NCBI GenBank assembly: GCA_905616445.1
Contig: CAJQSV010000045.1
Location: 1 to 36,702, forward strand
Source: an uncultured Pelagibacteraceae bacterium
Lineage (GTDB): Bacteria > Pseudomonadota > Alphaproteobacteria > Pelagibacterales > Pelagibacteraceae
Direction: 5' to 3'
DNA: 36,702 nucleotides
Shown here: positions 2 through 36,702 of the stretch, piece by piece
Layout of the letters: every line of letters starts with the position of its first letter
Numbering within the stretch: the first letter of the stretch is position 1
Position numbers and translations under genes: made by a program
Notes under the pieces: generated by a model
Seen by the model: the letters and a program-made list of their open reading frames with translations, nothing else
Database searches by the model: none
What the model was told of the DNA's origin: nothing

Positions 2-688
2 AAATTTATTAGACTAGAACAAGCAGAAGTTCGAAAAGAGCAAGCTGCAAAACAGAGAAGATTTTTAGAACAAATTCGTTTAGAGAAAAAAATAGAACAA
101 TTCAGAAAAAGAGAAGAATTAGAAATAAAAAATCTAGAAAAATTTGTTTTAAGCCAAGAAAGAGATTCTTATGTCGGTGTTCAAGAACGTATAGAAAAAA
201 TTAAACAAAAGTATCAAGCACTCAGGGATCAAAAAATCAGGGAACGTGTTGAACAACTAGGAATTAAAGTCGAAGAAGGTGAGGACCGATCAGTTCTCCT
301 CGAAAAAGAAAGACAATATAATCTAGAAAGACAAAAGATAGAATTTGCTCTTGAAAGTTTTTATAGATCCGCACACAGTCTTTGTTTCCAGATCAACAAA
401 AGATACATACCTAAATATTTAAACATCTTAAGGGTAATAGACAGAAGATTTGAGACTGGAGAAATATTTATTAAATGGGACGATGCTGCAGATGAAGACT
501 GGTTAATTCTTATTTATATTAAAGATAATTCTCCCACAGAAGGAATAGTTATTGAAGATAAATCTAATTCTGAAAAACATGCTTCACATGAATTTAAAAC
601 AAATGAAATTTTTAGAGCTAGTGACTTAATGGTGGATTCTTTAACAAATTTATTAGATCGAGAAAGAAAAAAAAGAAAAGTAAGCTAA
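2..688 (+). CDS. Coiled-coil protein of unknown function, 3' part only
   Basis: The reading frame is open from the window edge to a TAA at 686-688, giving 228 residues with no start in the window, so this is the C-terminal part of a longer protein. Residues 1 to about 115 are rich in Glu, Lys, Arg and Gln with Leu/Ile at heptad-like spacing, as expected of a long coiled coil. The last ~110 residues look like a small folded domain (short hydrophobic runs such as DWLILIYI) ending in a basic tail (REKKRKVS-like). I recognise no family. Its stop shares the tetranucleotide CTAA (685-688) with the stop of the convergent metallo-hydrolase gene. The coding call rests on frame length, charge pattern and amino acid composition. 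Confidence 0.75.
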   Translation, partial: KFIRLEQAEVRKEQAAKQRRFLEQIRLEKKIEQFRKREELEIKNLEKFVLSQERDSYVGVQERIEKIKQKYQALRDQKIRERVEQLGIKVEEGEDRSVLLEKERQYNLERQKIEFALESFYRSAHSLCFQINKRYIPKYLNILRVIDRRFETGEIFIKWDDAADEDWLILIYIKDNSPTEGIVIEDKSNSEKHASHEFKTNEIFRASDLMVDSLTNLLDRERKKRKVS

Positions 689-5783: not shown

Positions 5784-7256
5784 ATGGAAAATTTTAACTC
5801 ACTGAATCTAGAGAAAACTTTAATGGATTCGATTGCACTCATTAATTTTAAAACTCCAACACCTATTCAAGCACAAGCCATTCCTGTTGCACTTGAGGGA
5901 AAAGATATTCTAGGTACAGCCCAAACTGGAACTGGTAAAACAGCTGCTTTTGGTATTCCTTTAGTGAACTTTCTTTTAAAAACTCAAAAAGACACAGCAT
6001 TGGTAATGACGCCAACACGAGAATTAGCAACGCAAGTTATGCAAACGATGGTTAGTTTAATCGGTAAAGGAAATATTAGATCGGCTCTTTTGATAGGCGG
6101 AGATTCAATGCAAAAACAATTGAGACAAATGCAAAGAAACCCGAGATTAATTGTAGGCACACCAGGAAGAATTAACGATCATTTAGAAAGACGAACGCTA
6201 AAATTACAAAATACAACATTTTTAGTTTTGGACGAGAGCGACAGAATGCTCGATATGGGATTTACACCTCAGATAAATCAAGTTTTACAAACAGTTCCAG
6301 AAAAACACCAGACGTTATTATTTTCAGCAACGCTTGCAAACAACATTGTTCGTCTTGCCGAAAGATATTTAAGAAATCCTGTTAGAATATCAGTTGGCTC
6401 AACTTCCACACCGATTGATAAAATAAAACAAGAAGTTCTTCATGTAAAAGATGGAGATAAATACAATCAATTAATTAGGGAAATTTATAATCGACAAGGA
6501 GCTATTTTAATTTTTGTTAAAACTAGAAGAGGCGCAGAAAAAATGGTTAAAAGATTAAAATTTGACGATCATGATGCGGATGCTATTCATGGAAATTTAA
6601 GACAAAATAAAAGAGACAAAGTAATTAAAGCTTTTAGAAATGCACATTTTAGAATTTTAGTTGGAACAGATGTAGCGAGCAGAGGTCTTGATATTCCAGC
6701 TATAAAACATGTAATTAACTTTGACTTACCACAACTTCCTGAAGATTTTATTCACCGTATAGGAAGAACTGCCAGAGCAGGAGCAGAAGGGTCAGCTTTA
6801 AGTTTTATCGGTGGAGACGACAGAAGTAAGTGGAACGCTATACAAAGATTAATAGATCCTAACTTTAAACAGGATAAAAATAGTGGAGACAGAAGAGGAA
6901 GCGGAGGAAGAAGAGGCGGTAAATCTTTTGATAGACGCGGAAGTCGTGGCTCCGATAGATTTTCAGACAGAAAACCAGCCTCAAGATTTAAACGAGATGA
7001 TAGTAGAAGCTCATATGGGGAAAAAAGAGATGATAGAAAAGGATCTTTTAGCGACAGAAGAAGTGATAGTCGACCAGCCTCAAGATTTAAACGAGATGAT
7101 AGTAGAAGTGATAGTCGACCAGCCTCAAGATTTAAACGAGATGATAGTAGAAGCACATATGGCGAAAAAAGTGGGAAACCCTTTGAGCTCAAAAAGAAAC
7201 CTGGAGGTTTCAAAAAAAAACCTTTCAAAAAGTTTACAAAGAAATCTACTTTTTAA
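5784..7256 (+). CDS. DEAD-box RNA helicase, RhlE-like
   Basis: A 490-residue ATP-dependent RNA helicase. The motifs are in order: Q motif (TPTPIQ, 24-29), Walker A AQTGTGKT (46-53), PTRELA (77-82), GTPGR (125-129), motif II (150-153), SAT (181-183), IFVKT (243-247), VGTDVASRGLD (293-303) and HRIGRTARAG (324-333). Motif II reads DESD rather than DEAD. From about residue 365 the tail is basic, Gly/Arg/Ser/Asp-rich and repetitive (RPASRFKRDDSRS units), then ends in a Lys/Phe-rich stretch. Such tails bind RNA non-specifically. Likely roles are ribosome assembly, mRNA decay or cold adaptation. The gene stands alone between the divergent SRAP unit and the enolase-superfamily gene. Open frames on both strands inside the tail are shadows of the repeats. 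Confidence 0.95.
   Translation: MENFNSLNLEKTLMDSIALINFKTPTPIQAQAIPVALEGKDILGTAQTGTGKTAAFGIPLVNFLLKTQKDTALVMTPTRELATQVMQTMVSLIGKGNIRSALLIGGDSMQKQLRQMQRNPRLIVGTPGRINDHLERRTLKLQNTTFLVLDESDRMLDMGFTPQINQVLQTVPEKHQTLLFSATLANNIVRLAERYLRNPVRISVGSTSTPIDKIKQEVLHVKDGDKYNQLIREIYNRQGAILIFVKTRRGAEKMVKRLKFDDHDADAIHGNLRQNKRDKVIKAFRNAHFRILVGTDVASRGLDIPAIKHVINFDLPQLPEDFIHRIGRTARAGAEGSALSFIGGDDRSKWNAIQRLIDPNFKQDKNSGDRRGSGGRRGGKSFDRRGSRGSDRFSDRKPASRFKRDDSRSSYGEKRDDRKGSFSDRRSDSRPASRFKRDDSRSDSRPASRFKRDDSRSTYGEKSGKPFELKKKPGGFKKKPFKKFTKKSTF
6974..7150 (+). repeat. Tandem 45-bp repeats in helicase tail
   Basis: Two perfect adjacent 45-base copies (7061-7105 and 7106-7150) encode a 15-residue unit. An earlier partial copy at 6974-7009 matches 36 bases and lies 99 bases before the equivalent part of the next copy. 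The bases after the first and last copies also match closely (AAG C/A CATATGG-like). All spacings are multiples of three, so the frame is kept. Perfect identity points to a recent duplication. Confidence 0.9.
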
Positions 7257-7372
7257 TTTAAATAATTTTTGTCATTAAATTTAAATCAATAGAATCAACA
7301 CATTTGAAGTAATTTAAAATTTTTCTAGCCCTTGTCCGGATCGACTATTAATGAGATATTATTTTTTAAATT

Positions 7373-28895: not shown

Positions 28896-29354
28896 TTACT
28901 TTTTTGCATTGATAAAAGAAACAATCTCTATGCATAAATTTAGAAAGTCGGTAACTAATTCTTCTGAGGGTCTAATATTTTTTACTTTACCATCTTTTCC
29001 AAGGTTTCCATCGGGAGCTAAAAGCTCATAATAACCATGTAAAATTCCATCATCAACAATTTTAGCAATAGTTTTATAAGAGTATTCAGGAATTTTTTTT
29101 GCTATTTCTTCTTTGTAAATTTCAACACCAGCCTCATTGGCGTGGAATATTTCAAGGAAAATTTTAACTCTTTTTATATTTGCAAAACACCAATTTAATC
29201 CCTCATTCGCTTCACGCATTTTAAAAACTTCATGAATAAAAGCCGATACATCGCCACCAAGTTTTTTCCAACTAAGTTCATCAACTTTAAAAGGCAACTT
29301 TTCAAATTTAAGTTTAGAAAATATTCTTTGGTCTCTCTCTTCCTGTTTATTCAT
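28896..29354 (-). CDS. Unknown 152-aa protein with possible winged-helix segment
   Basis: ATG-started, 152 residues, moderately charged. A stretch around 81-110 (KEEIAKKIPEYSYKTIAKIV) resembles a helix-turn-helix recognition unit followed by a hydrophobic helix, seen in MarR-like winged-helix proteins, then a wing-like YYELLAPDGNLGKDGKVK segment. The N-terminal FIHEVFKMREANEGLNW and C-terminal LVTDFLNLCIEIVSF helices could form the dimer interface. DNA binding is possible but unproven. It is transcribed alone, 85 bases downstream of the YczE-family gene on the same strand. A 26-codon frame overlaps its 3' end. Confidence 0.55.
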   Translation of the reverse strand: MNKQEERDQRIFSKLKFEKLPFKVDELSWKKLGGDVSAFIHEVFKMREANEGLNWCFANIKRVKIFLEIFHANEAGVEIYKEEIAKKIPEYSYKTIAKIVDDGILHGYYELLAPDGNLGKDGKVKNIRPSEELVTDFLNLCIEIVSFINAKK

Positions 29355-33909: not shown

Positions 33910-34716
33910 ATGAATAAAAAAGTTTTAGTTACAGGAGCTTCTGGACATTTAGGTGGAGTGCTTTTTAGATCCTTAGCAAACCTTGGATACAAAAACCTTG
34001 TAGGTACAGATTTAAAAAAAAAAAATATAGGAAAAAATCAAAAATTTATATTAGCCAATCTTAAAAATCTTAAAGCGATTACAAAAATGAGCAAAGGAGT
34101 TCACGCTATCGTACATTTCGGTGCTATACCTATTGAAGACACTCAGCCCAATATTTTACAAAATAATATTATAGGTACCTACAATCTCTTTGAGGCAGCA
34201 AGAATAAATAAAGTAAAAAGAATAATTTTTGCAAGTTCAAACCATGCTATTGGGTTTCACAGAAGAACAACAAAGTTAAATGAGTTTTCAAACCAAAGAC
34301 CAGATAGTCATTATGGTTTAAGTAAAGCTTTTGGAGAAGAATTGTCTCGATTTTACGCTGATAAATTTAACATTAAATCTATGTGCATTAGGATTGGATC
34401 GTGTTTGAAAGTACCGCAGGATAGAAGGCATGTATCAACTTGGATTAGTTACGACGATCTTACTCAACTAGTTGATATTGGAATTAAGCATAAAGCTATT
34501 CATCATGTAATCGTTTATGGGGCTTCCAAAAATAAAAAATCATGGTGGAATAATTCACGAGCTTATCAACTTGGCTATAAACCCAAAGATAGTTCCGATA
34601 AATTTGATATTCATTTATTAAGTAAAAATGAGCATAAAAATAAAATGGCCTTACTTTTTCAAGGAGGTGTTTTCACTTCTGCCAATTTTAAGGGTGATAT
34701 CAAAAACATTAAATAA
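33910..34716 (+). CDS. Uronate dehydrogenase-like extended SDR
   Basis: A 268-residue NAD(P)-dependent extended short-chain dehydrogenase. Cofactor loop is GASGHLGG (9-16); catalytic Tyr135 and Lys139 are in YGLSK. From memory, many stretches match Agrobacterium uronate dehydrogenase Udh: NNIIGTYNLFEAAR, FASSNHAIGF, STWISYDD, WWNNSRAY with GYKPKD and the closing FQGGVF. Such enzymes oxidise galacturonate and glucuronate to the aldaro-lactones. Three bases after the SMP-30 lactonase gene. UDP-sugar epimerases are related but lack these blocks. Confidence 0.88.
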   Translation: MNKKVLVTGASGHLGGVLFRSLANLGYKNLVGTDLKKKNIGKNQKFILANLKNLKAITKMSKGVHAIVHFGAIPIEDTQPNILQNNIIGTYNLFEAARINKVKRIIFASSNHAIGFHRRTTKLNEFSNQRPDSHYGLSKAFGEELSRFYADKFNIKSMCIRIGSCLKVPQDRRHVSTWISYDDLTQLVDIGIKHKAIHHVIVYGASKNKKSWWNNSRAYQLGYKPKDSSDKFDIHLLSKNEHKNKMALLFQGGVFTSANFKGDIKNIK

Positions 34717-34740: not shown

Positions 34741-35712
34741 ATGTTCTTTAAAAAACTTCTGCGAGAAATTAAAGATGTTGCAATCCCGTTATATAAAATT
34801 TTAATTCCTTTTATTTTTATTATTAAATTATTAGAAATTACAGGTGTAGTAGATCTAATTGCTAAAGCTTTTGCGCCTTTGGTGGGATTAATTGGTCTAC
34901 CACCAGAGTTAGGAATTATTTGGGTGACAGCTTTAGTGGTAAATATATATGCAGCCTTAATTTTACTTGTAAATATTCTTCCATCTCTTGATATCAGTGT
35001 TGCTCAAATTACTATTTTAACGGTAGCTATGTTGCTCTGTCACAATCTTTTAGTAGAGTCAGCTATATCAAGATCAGCTGGTGTCTCTTTCTTATTTACT
35101 TCTTTTTATAGACTTGTCTCAGCTTTTTTTGTTTGTTGCATTTTAAATTTAATTTATTCTAAATTTAATTATCTACACGAACCATTCACAACTTCTTTTA
35201 CATTAGAAATGCCACAACCAGGTTTTTGGTTTTGGTTAAAAAATCAAATACTTTATTTGTTCTACATTTTTATTATTGTGGCAGCACTTATTACAATATT
35301 AGAAATTCTGAAAGTTATAGGCATAGAGAGTTTTTTAAAAAAAATATTAGCTCCTCCATTAAAATTTTTTGGTATCAGTGAATCAGCAATGAATATTATT
35401 ATTGTAGGAATGACAATTGGACTCCAGTTTGGAGGCGGGATCCTAATTAAGGAAGTTAATTCTGCTAAGATAGACAAACAAAGCGTTTTTCTTTCGATTC
35501 TAATGATTAATCTTGTTCACGCTATTGTTGAAGATACGTTATTGATGCTTGCTGTAGGGGGGCATTTTTCAGGAGTCATTTTTGCAAGAATTATCTTTGG
35601 CTTATTAATTTCTTTATTAATGCTAAAGATTTATCAAATCTTTAATTTATTTTTTGAAAGGTATATTTTTAATAAAAAACTAAAACTGTTGCCAAATTTT
35701 AAAACAGATTAA
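34741..35712 (+). CDS. Nucleoside-recognition (Gate domain) membrane protein
   Basis: A 323-residue inner-membrane protein with about eight helices in two halves, each carrying a nucleoside-recognition/Gate-domain layout: KILIPFIFIIKLLEITGVVDLIA, then helices near 55-110, and a second copy with ITILEILKVIGIESFLKKILAP and QFGGGILIKEV. The family includes spore maturation proteins SpmA/SpmB and YjiH, with unknown substrates. Located 24 bases after the uronate genes on the same strand and possibly co-transcribed; a role in sugar-acid movement is only a guess. Its stop lies two bases before the convergent acidic protein's stop. Confidence 0.8.
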   Translation: MFFKKLLREIKDVAIPLYKILIPFIFIIKLLEITGVVDLIAKAFAPLVGLIGLPPELGIIWVTALVVNIYAALILLVNILPSLDISVAQITILTVAMLLCHNLLVESAISRSAGVSFLFTSFYRLVSAFFVCCILNLIYSKFNYLHEPFTTSFTLEMPQPGFWFWLKNQILYLFYIFIIVAALITILEILKVIGIESFLKKILAPPLKFFGISESAMNIIIVGMTIGLQFGGGILIKEVNSAKIDKQSVFLSILMINLVHAIVEDTLLMLAVGGHFSGVIFARIIFGLLISLLMLKIYQIFNLFFERYIFNKKLKLLPNFKTD

Positions 35713-35714
35713 AA

Positions 35715-35990
35715 TTATTTTTCCTCTTCGTCATCAAAATCTAAATCATTATCATCATCATTATCTAGATCGTCTTCCTCTTCATCGTCTAAATCTTCTT
35801 CTGTATTAGAGTTATTAAGCTCTACAAACTCAACTTTTTCTTTTTTAACCCATTTTTCTGCAGACTTTGGAATCTCTTCCTCTTCTTCCCAGGCTTCAAT
35901 ATCTGAGATTTCTAAATCTAAAGCCTCAGCAGCTGAATCTAAGTCTAATTGAAGTTCCTCAAGAGTTTCTAAAAATTCTTTGTATGTCAT
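35715..35990 (-). CDS. Small HTH-like protein with very acidic tail
   Basis: A 91-residue protein. Residues 1-45 (KEFLETLEELQLDLDSAAEAL, DLEISDIEAWEEEEEIPKSA) follow the outline of a small helix-turn-helix protein: helix, turn, helix with Trp, then a Pro-ended loop. In place of basic recognition residues it carries Glu and Asp, so DNA contact would be unusual. Residues 60-91 are almost entirely Asp and Glu, a disordered acidic tail. It might mimic DNA or bind a basic partner. ATG start at 35990. It faces the nucleoside-recognition gene. Function unknown. Confidence 0.6.
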   Translation of the reverse strand: MTYKEFLETLEELQLDLDSAAEALDLEISDIEAWEEEEEIPKSAEKWVKKEKVEFVELNNSNTEEDLDDEEEDDLDNDDDNDLDFDDEEEK

Positions 35991-36034
35991 TTTATTCTTT
36001 ATTTAATTTACTAACTGCCATGTACACTAATTTT

Positions 36035-36615
36035 TTAATTATTAAAAGCACATCTAAAACCAATATAAGTTGGGTAAATTAGATGGATTATATTGAGTAC
36101 CCTCTTTTTTGGTTTTTTTTTACTTCTATGCTACCAAGGTCCTCCGCTGCTAAAGAATTATTTTCTTTTTGATCTTAAACCCACACCCAAATATTTTACA
36201 TACAGCAACTAATCTATTGATTCACTGCGGCAATAAAATTACATTCACATGTTTATTTTATTCTAAAAGCCTTTAGGAGTACTTTTTCCAGTAGAATTTC
36301 TACTTTGAAAGATATAGTTTTTTTCAAAATCAACAGAGTTAGATAATTGGGTATATGTAGCTAAAGACTACTTCTTGAAAGTTGGCAACCGCTCACTTAT
36401 TGAATTACAATATTGCTCATCTTCAAATTGAATAACATGAACACTAAACTCTAGATTTGACGAGGGATGTTTTCTGCACAGCATTTTATAATTTAAATTT
36501 TCTCCCCACAAACATCATACTATTCATAACCAGCGCCTGTCTATTCAGCTTTTGTTATAATTTTATTTTTCTCAGAATAATTTTTAAATGCTTTTGATAT
36601 AGTTAAAAATAATAA
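36035..36615 (-). pseudogene. Decayed formylglycine-generating-enzyme (SUMF1/FGE-sulfatase) domain
   Basis: No frame is long, yet the motifs of an FGE-sulfatase domain occur in order across three minus-strand frames broken by stops and shifts. From 36615 downward: SKAFKNYSEKN then ITKAE-stop-TGAGYE (compare TGYxTEAEKxG); LCRKHPSSNLEFSVHVIQFE then DEQYCNSISERLPT (compare WRHP, HVSWxDAxAYCxW, RLPTEAEWE); NSTGKSTPKGF (TxPVG); NIWVWV-stop-D (GNVWEWxxD); SSGGPW-stop-HRS (RGGSxxxHRS); and YIGFRCAF before a TAA at 36035-36037 (GFRCA, the domain end). The order and spacing match an intact domain of 200 or so residues. An FGE converts a cysteine of sulfatases to formylglycine; this copy cannot be translated as one protein. 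The 5' end may lie beyond 36615. Confidence 0.7.
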
Positions 36616-36702
36616 AAAAAAATTTAAAGTAAAAAAGTTTTATTTTTTAATAATTATACATTTTAATTTATCTTTAAATTTTAGTATTTCTTTATATTTA
36701 AA

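Follow-up and report, generated by a model that had tools for sequence, protein, structure and literature searches.

A decayed SUMF1/FGE-fold protein gene in a variable gene slot of SAR11 genomes

The end of the window, i.e., the whole stretch of DNA analysed here (contig C45, 36,702 bases, of the 48-contig, 772,895-base assembly G000, with an estimated completeness of ≈64%), holds a dead gene. With very high confidence, which applies to our explanation as a whole, positions 36035–36604 of the minus strand are a gene relic, no longer functional, that once encoded an apparently secreted, single-domain SUMF1/FGE-fold protein. The relic and its neighbours are arranged as follows:

36640–36702, minus strand: truncated class I methyltransferase gene just upstream of the relic, of which the contig end leaves the 20 final codons and the stop (16 of 19 residues shared with the G096 protein)
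36035–36604, minus strand: pseudogene of a putatively secreted SUMF1/FGE-fold (PF03781) protein, with 3' end and original stop kept (frame-tolerant alignment)
35991–36034, minus strand: 44-bp spacer from the relic stop to the next gene, equal in length in G190 and G003 and related in sequence in G096
35715–35990, minus strand: intact gene, conserved downstream of the relic, for a small acidic protein (77–87% identity to orthologs)
34741–35712, plus strand: intact gene of a Gate-domain (nucleoside recognition) membrane protein, used as synteny anchor (PF07670)

Translation of positions 35991–36702 gave FGE-family pieces in all three minus-strand frames, in the correct order and with stops. A plain search of the window genome with the Pfam model PF03781 returned no match, and the most obvious concatenated reading scored 13.7 bits, below the cut-off of 23.3. 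Since plain Pfam searches gave nothing above cut-off, a frame-tolerant aligner was written, using as reference P0001, an intact 230-residue homolog from G024, a genus-mate of the window genome (CP.27 MAG, VTPM01000043). The local alignment of P0001 with the relic reached a score of 416, with 103 of 197 residues identical and six in-frame stops, whereas the null maxima were 51 for base shuffles, 67 for other 712-base segments of the window, 56 for first-order Markov DNA, 52 for the shuffled protein and 36 for the opposite strand. The optimal path held nine frameshifts, seven of which recurred with most other family members, the count varying slightly with the reference protein (7–11 with ten family members). 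Positions 36038–36604 alone, scoring 414, represent the solid part of the match and are followed by the conserved stop codon at 36035–36037; the first ≈38 codons, signal peptide included, are unrecognisable. The relic thus joins PF03781 only via frame-tolerant alignment to intact homologs. The dead FGE-family gene that the first-pass annotation had read at 36035–36615, from motifs in order interrupted by stops and frame changes, is therefore borne out, although its upstream end was set about 10 bases too far; the last 63 bases of the tail described there as gene-free are not empty, since they carry the methyltransferase 3' end.

The lesions, all on the minus strand, were mapped as follows:

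36541–36543: in-frame stop where the intact homolog has K58 (frame-tolerant alignment)
36368–36370: in-frame stop at the family-invariant W117 (RLPTFxEW; frame-tolerant alignment)
36258–36267: frameshift plus in-frame stop near residue 155, the exact base depending on the alignment
36222–36224: in-frame stop at the family-invariant G168 (alignment)
36175–36177: in-frame stop where the intact homolog has E184 (alignment)
36131–36133: in-frame stop TAG at W199 (GGSWWY motif), the candidate ancestral lesion, common to G190 and G003
36077–36522: seven recurrent frameshifts, near 36522, 36500, 36268/36259, 36197, 36150, 36119 and 36077 (alignment)

The same six stops were recovered with other family members as reference, so that several independent disabling lesions, six stops and seven recurrent frameshifts, mark the sequence as a pseudogene. 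This is in accordance with the substitution pattern. Between the relic and four intact homologs, mismatches at codon positions 1, 2 and 3 amounted to 0.32–0.34, 0.22–0.27 and 0.49–0.54, respectively, against 0.15–0.19, 0.12–0.16 and 0.42–0.44 between intact copies; those at positions 1 and 2 are thus ≈1.5–2 times as frequent as in intact pairs, while position 3 is nearly unchanged, again as expected for a pseudogene. Constraint on codon positions 1 and 2 of the relic has been lost, and its additional changes sit where purifying selection once acted. That the gene is instead intact, its stops and frameshifts being sequencing or assembly errors, might be thought of for a locus at a contig end of a fragmented assembly, but is extremely improbable: at least 13 lesions fall within 570 bp, yet the neighbouring window genes are uninterrupted, and the amino acid divergence of the relic far exceeds that among intact copies even outside the lesions. 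Indeed, it is the constraint lost at positions 1 and 2, together with the recurrence of the W199 stop in two further assemblies, G190 and G003, that rules out sequencing error, and with it the intact gene that the first-pass annotation had kept as an option.

The same locus was found more deeply eroded in these two relatives, and not occupied by unrelated intact genes. G190 retains, in the same place, the last ≈39 codons of the same gene, with two stops (score 103, null maximum 40), and G003 a short relic of its last ≈40 codons (score 82, null maximum 49); in the window, G190 and G003 alike, 44 bp separate the relic stop codon from one and the same downstream gene, that of the acidic protein. 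The W199 codon, TGG in intact copies, reads TAG in the window and in G190, and TAA in G003. The window frameshifts at 36150, 36119 and 36077 are absent from both relatives, and are therefore later events. Since the flanking proteins are 80–90% identical among the three genomes, the shared lesion, if of single origin, predates their split; flanking-protein identities were the only guide to the branching (for the Gate protein, 89% between the window and G190, 81% with G003 and 69% with G024). The loss, initially proposed as recent, is thus not so, the W199 stop being common to several species. As judged from these sequences, the FGE-fold gene probably died once, in the common ancestor of G000, G190 and G003. 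Inactivation in that ancestor would have come from the W199 nonsense change or from a lesion preceding it; further stops and indels would then have entered the relic in the window lineage, with the methyltransferase gene staying open as far as it is readable, and in G190 and G003 the methyltransferase gene and most of the relic would have been lost, putatively by deletion, leaving ≈40 codons.

Two other accounts of this pattern were weighed. Parallel decay, with a separate death of the gene in each lineage, would suit the largely lineage-specific lesions, as the three final window frameshifts are missing from G190 and G003, each of which carries extra changes of its own, and the patchy distribution of the gene across SAR11, which implies frequent losses; a repeated origin of the W199 stop is also conceivable in such AT-rich DNA. 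Nevertheless, we consider it quite unlikely, since the same residue is stopped in all three genomes, which also keep the same 3' end and an identical 44-bp spacer, and the Gate genes of G000, G190 and G003 are closer to one another than to that of G024. With the single ancestral death as the preferred reading, vertical descent at the slot is not proven, because the intact copy of G024, near the same dehydrogenase gene, lies in the opposite orientation. The persistence of the fragment might also be due to co-option of the relic 3' end as promoter or 5' leader of the acidic-protein gene: the last ≈40 codons and the spacer are precisely the part retained in all three relics, and the spacer is related even in G096, a genome without relic. 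This appears unlikely, as G096 manages without the relic, which is thus not needed in itself, no Rfam match was found in the region and promoter-like sites occur there at chance level; the 44-bp spacer could possibly be a promoter region.

The slot between the acidic-protein gene and the dehydrogenase gene is variable. In the window genome the methyltransferase gene is split: its residues 1–148 open contig C8 (G000:C8:3-446; 72% identity). Because of this split, and because the gene order on C8 then follows that of the relatives, C45 and C8 are very probably neighbours with ≈220 bases missing between them, as far as the sequences can tell. Beside the methyltransferase, C8 carries a tiny ORF, MKEAYLYLLTGIALGLIIYLAGKYIF, which is also found next to the dehydrogenase gene in G096, G190 and G003. 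It is conserved over 26 codons (MKExYxYLLTGIAxGLxIYLxxKYIF; in the window genome at L077 (G000:C8), ≈424–504, minus strand, and further at L008, L013, L027 and L083), with one likely transmembrane segment; it adjoins the dehydrogenase gene in four genomes, and a similar ORF occurs in G148. The tiny ORF is followed on C8 (L077, ≈505–550, minus strand) by MNKFDLSSGRATY and a stop, a 13-codon scar in which the start and the end of the dehydrogenase (SDR) are joined without the middle; both ends of the dehydrogenase protein read FDLS, which suggests a deletion between short repeats. Beyond the scar lies the same EamA-like gene (so named by sequence inspection) as in G190 and G003. The occupants of the slot differ among relatives: G096 holds the methyltransferase, the tiny ORF and the dehydrogenase, with no FGE gene and 36 bp from the methyltransferase to the acidic-protein gene, and G190 and G003 have no methyltransferase at the slot and have lost most of the relic. 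In G195 and G198 (≈99% complete, from another genus) the intact FGE-fold gene starts inside the methyltransferase gene upstream of it; the two genes adjoin in some strains and are apart in G024. The relic is probably the former second gene of such a methyltransferase-FGE pair.

Some rearranged or misleading reading frames were observed as well. Near the slot in G003 (L003, 666–1475, plus strand), the ≈32 first residues of another small protein (beginning MEEQKLRDKRILAKLNLNKLPFE, like that at window positions 28896–29354) are joined to the remainder of an epimerase, whose gene is complete in the window at 33910–34716; this junction may be a deletion fusion or a chimera. At a locus different from that of the relic, G031 carries (L009, 1177–1632, minus strand) an FGE-fold N-terminal piece (≈residues 5–66; first ≈45–65) in frame with an apparent ABC-transporter ATPase tail, explicable by a deletion that fused the two or by chimeric assembly. 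Within the window, long opposite-strand or other-frame ORFs at 6752–7278 lie over the repetitive basic tail of a DEAD-box helicase and, rather than genes, are shadow ORFs arising from the repeat.

Intact homologs belong to the PF03781 family with 91.8 and 85.3 bits, above the cut-off of 23.3; P0001 matched the model with an E-value of 7e-26, and the homolog of HIMB058 (G192, ATTF01000001), likewise from the genus of the window, is 71% identical to it. Intact copies in the genus were found only in G024 and HIMB058 among 169 genomes, many of them incomplete. Throughout the order, 20 of the 397 sampled genomes gave a match, the relic counted, of which 16 were full-length and strong and three were weak, lying inside 410-residue frames and probably belonging to other FGE-fold proteins; a weak match was also recorded in G125 (E 0.04). 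Four further genera of the Pelagibacteraceae have close relatives of the intact protein, and no relative of it was found in a viral contig collection. By inspection, the family members have a hydrophobic N-terminus resembling a signal peptide and look secreted. Two cysteines, C104 and C226, are invariant and lie away from the FGE active-site position. A structure predicted for the intact protein on the basis of two sequences was of low confidence (pLDDT 34).

As to the lost function, a link to sulfatases had been put forward in the first-pass annotation. Sulfatase activation by a true formylglycine-generating enzyme would be in line with the PF03781 match of the intact homolog, with HIMB058, where a gene of the sulfatase superfamily (L016, 4509–5993, a membrane protein with a weak PF00884 match) overlaps by 14 bases the intact FGE-fold gene (5980–6678), and with a CxPxR protein encoded in G024. 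It is, however, highly improbable. The family reads GASWWYG where FGE has GGSxxCHxSYC, i.e., a tyrosine replaces the first active-site cysteine and the second is absent, so that the copper-binding cysteine pair of FGE (CxxxxC after GGS) is missing from the SAR11 members. Moreover, no PF00884 sulfatase was found in G195, G198, G202 and G197, four genomes ≈99% complete and all with the intact gene. The CxPxR motif was found only in the G024 protein, which does not point to a partnership with Cys-type sulfatases; it is missing from the HIMB058 neighbour and from the single PF00884 gene detected in the ≈64%-complete window genome, whose product looks, on reading its sequence, like an EptA-type phosphoethanolamine transferase. 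The ergothioneine role also suggested finds no more support, the intact homologs having PF03781 as their only domain, with no DinB: the EgtB and SenA models gave 38.5 bits against a cut-off of 360 and 40.5 against 420, respectively, and the OvoA model scored far below its cut-off. The same holds for PvdO (15.2 bits against the NCBIfam NF051459 cut-off of 500). Among the papers searched, none named both Pelagibacter and formylglycine-generating.

The case is of value as a documented one in a compact, pseudogene-poor lineage, with a lesion common to several genomes of species level and a single locus seen at different degrees of erosion. Two tempting inferences are corrected as well: the loss is not recent, and it has no bearing on sulfatases or ergothioneine. 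A wider proposal, possible but rather doubtful at present, is that SAR11 clade II, in which a passage of PMC4771312 places HIMB058, retains recognisable gene corpses in variable slots through speciation. If so, living species could be compared for how far the decay has gone, from an intact pair through a dead partner and a 40-codon stub to clean absence, and the comparison could gauge the speed at which dead DNA is erased from a streamlined genome, countering the view of such genomes as nearly pseudogene-free.

Among known systems, the best solved-structure match of the family is CalU17 (PDB 7ml6 and 6vqp; E 5e-25 over residues 26–229), which is longer (317–335 residues). SUMF2 (pFGE, the FGE paralog), a eukaryotic ER protein, also ranks among the top solved structures matched by the family profile (E 3e-19); it shares a single SUMF1 domain, a secretory nature and the lack of the FGE active-site cysteines, but is longer and distant in sequence. 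The sulfoxide and selenoxide synthases EgtB, SenA and OvoA have an N-terminal DinB domain. Their likeness resides in the FGE-like domain, all 18 family members matching the SenA and EgtB models weakly, whereas the SAR11 protein has 230 residues and a hydrophobic, signal-peptide-like N-terminus. As a dead gene, the relic resembles ordinary bacterial pseudogenes of patchy accessory genes in its stops, frameshifts, relaxed constraint and eroded counterparts in relatives; it differs in its occurrence in SAR11, where few pseudogenes are mentioned in general (in a passage of PMC10308909) and none for HTCC1062 (in a statement of PMC4285135, citing Giovannoni 2005). It is thus an ordinary pseudogene, sitting in a slot of variable gene content, and exceptional for SAR11 in degree and not in kind.
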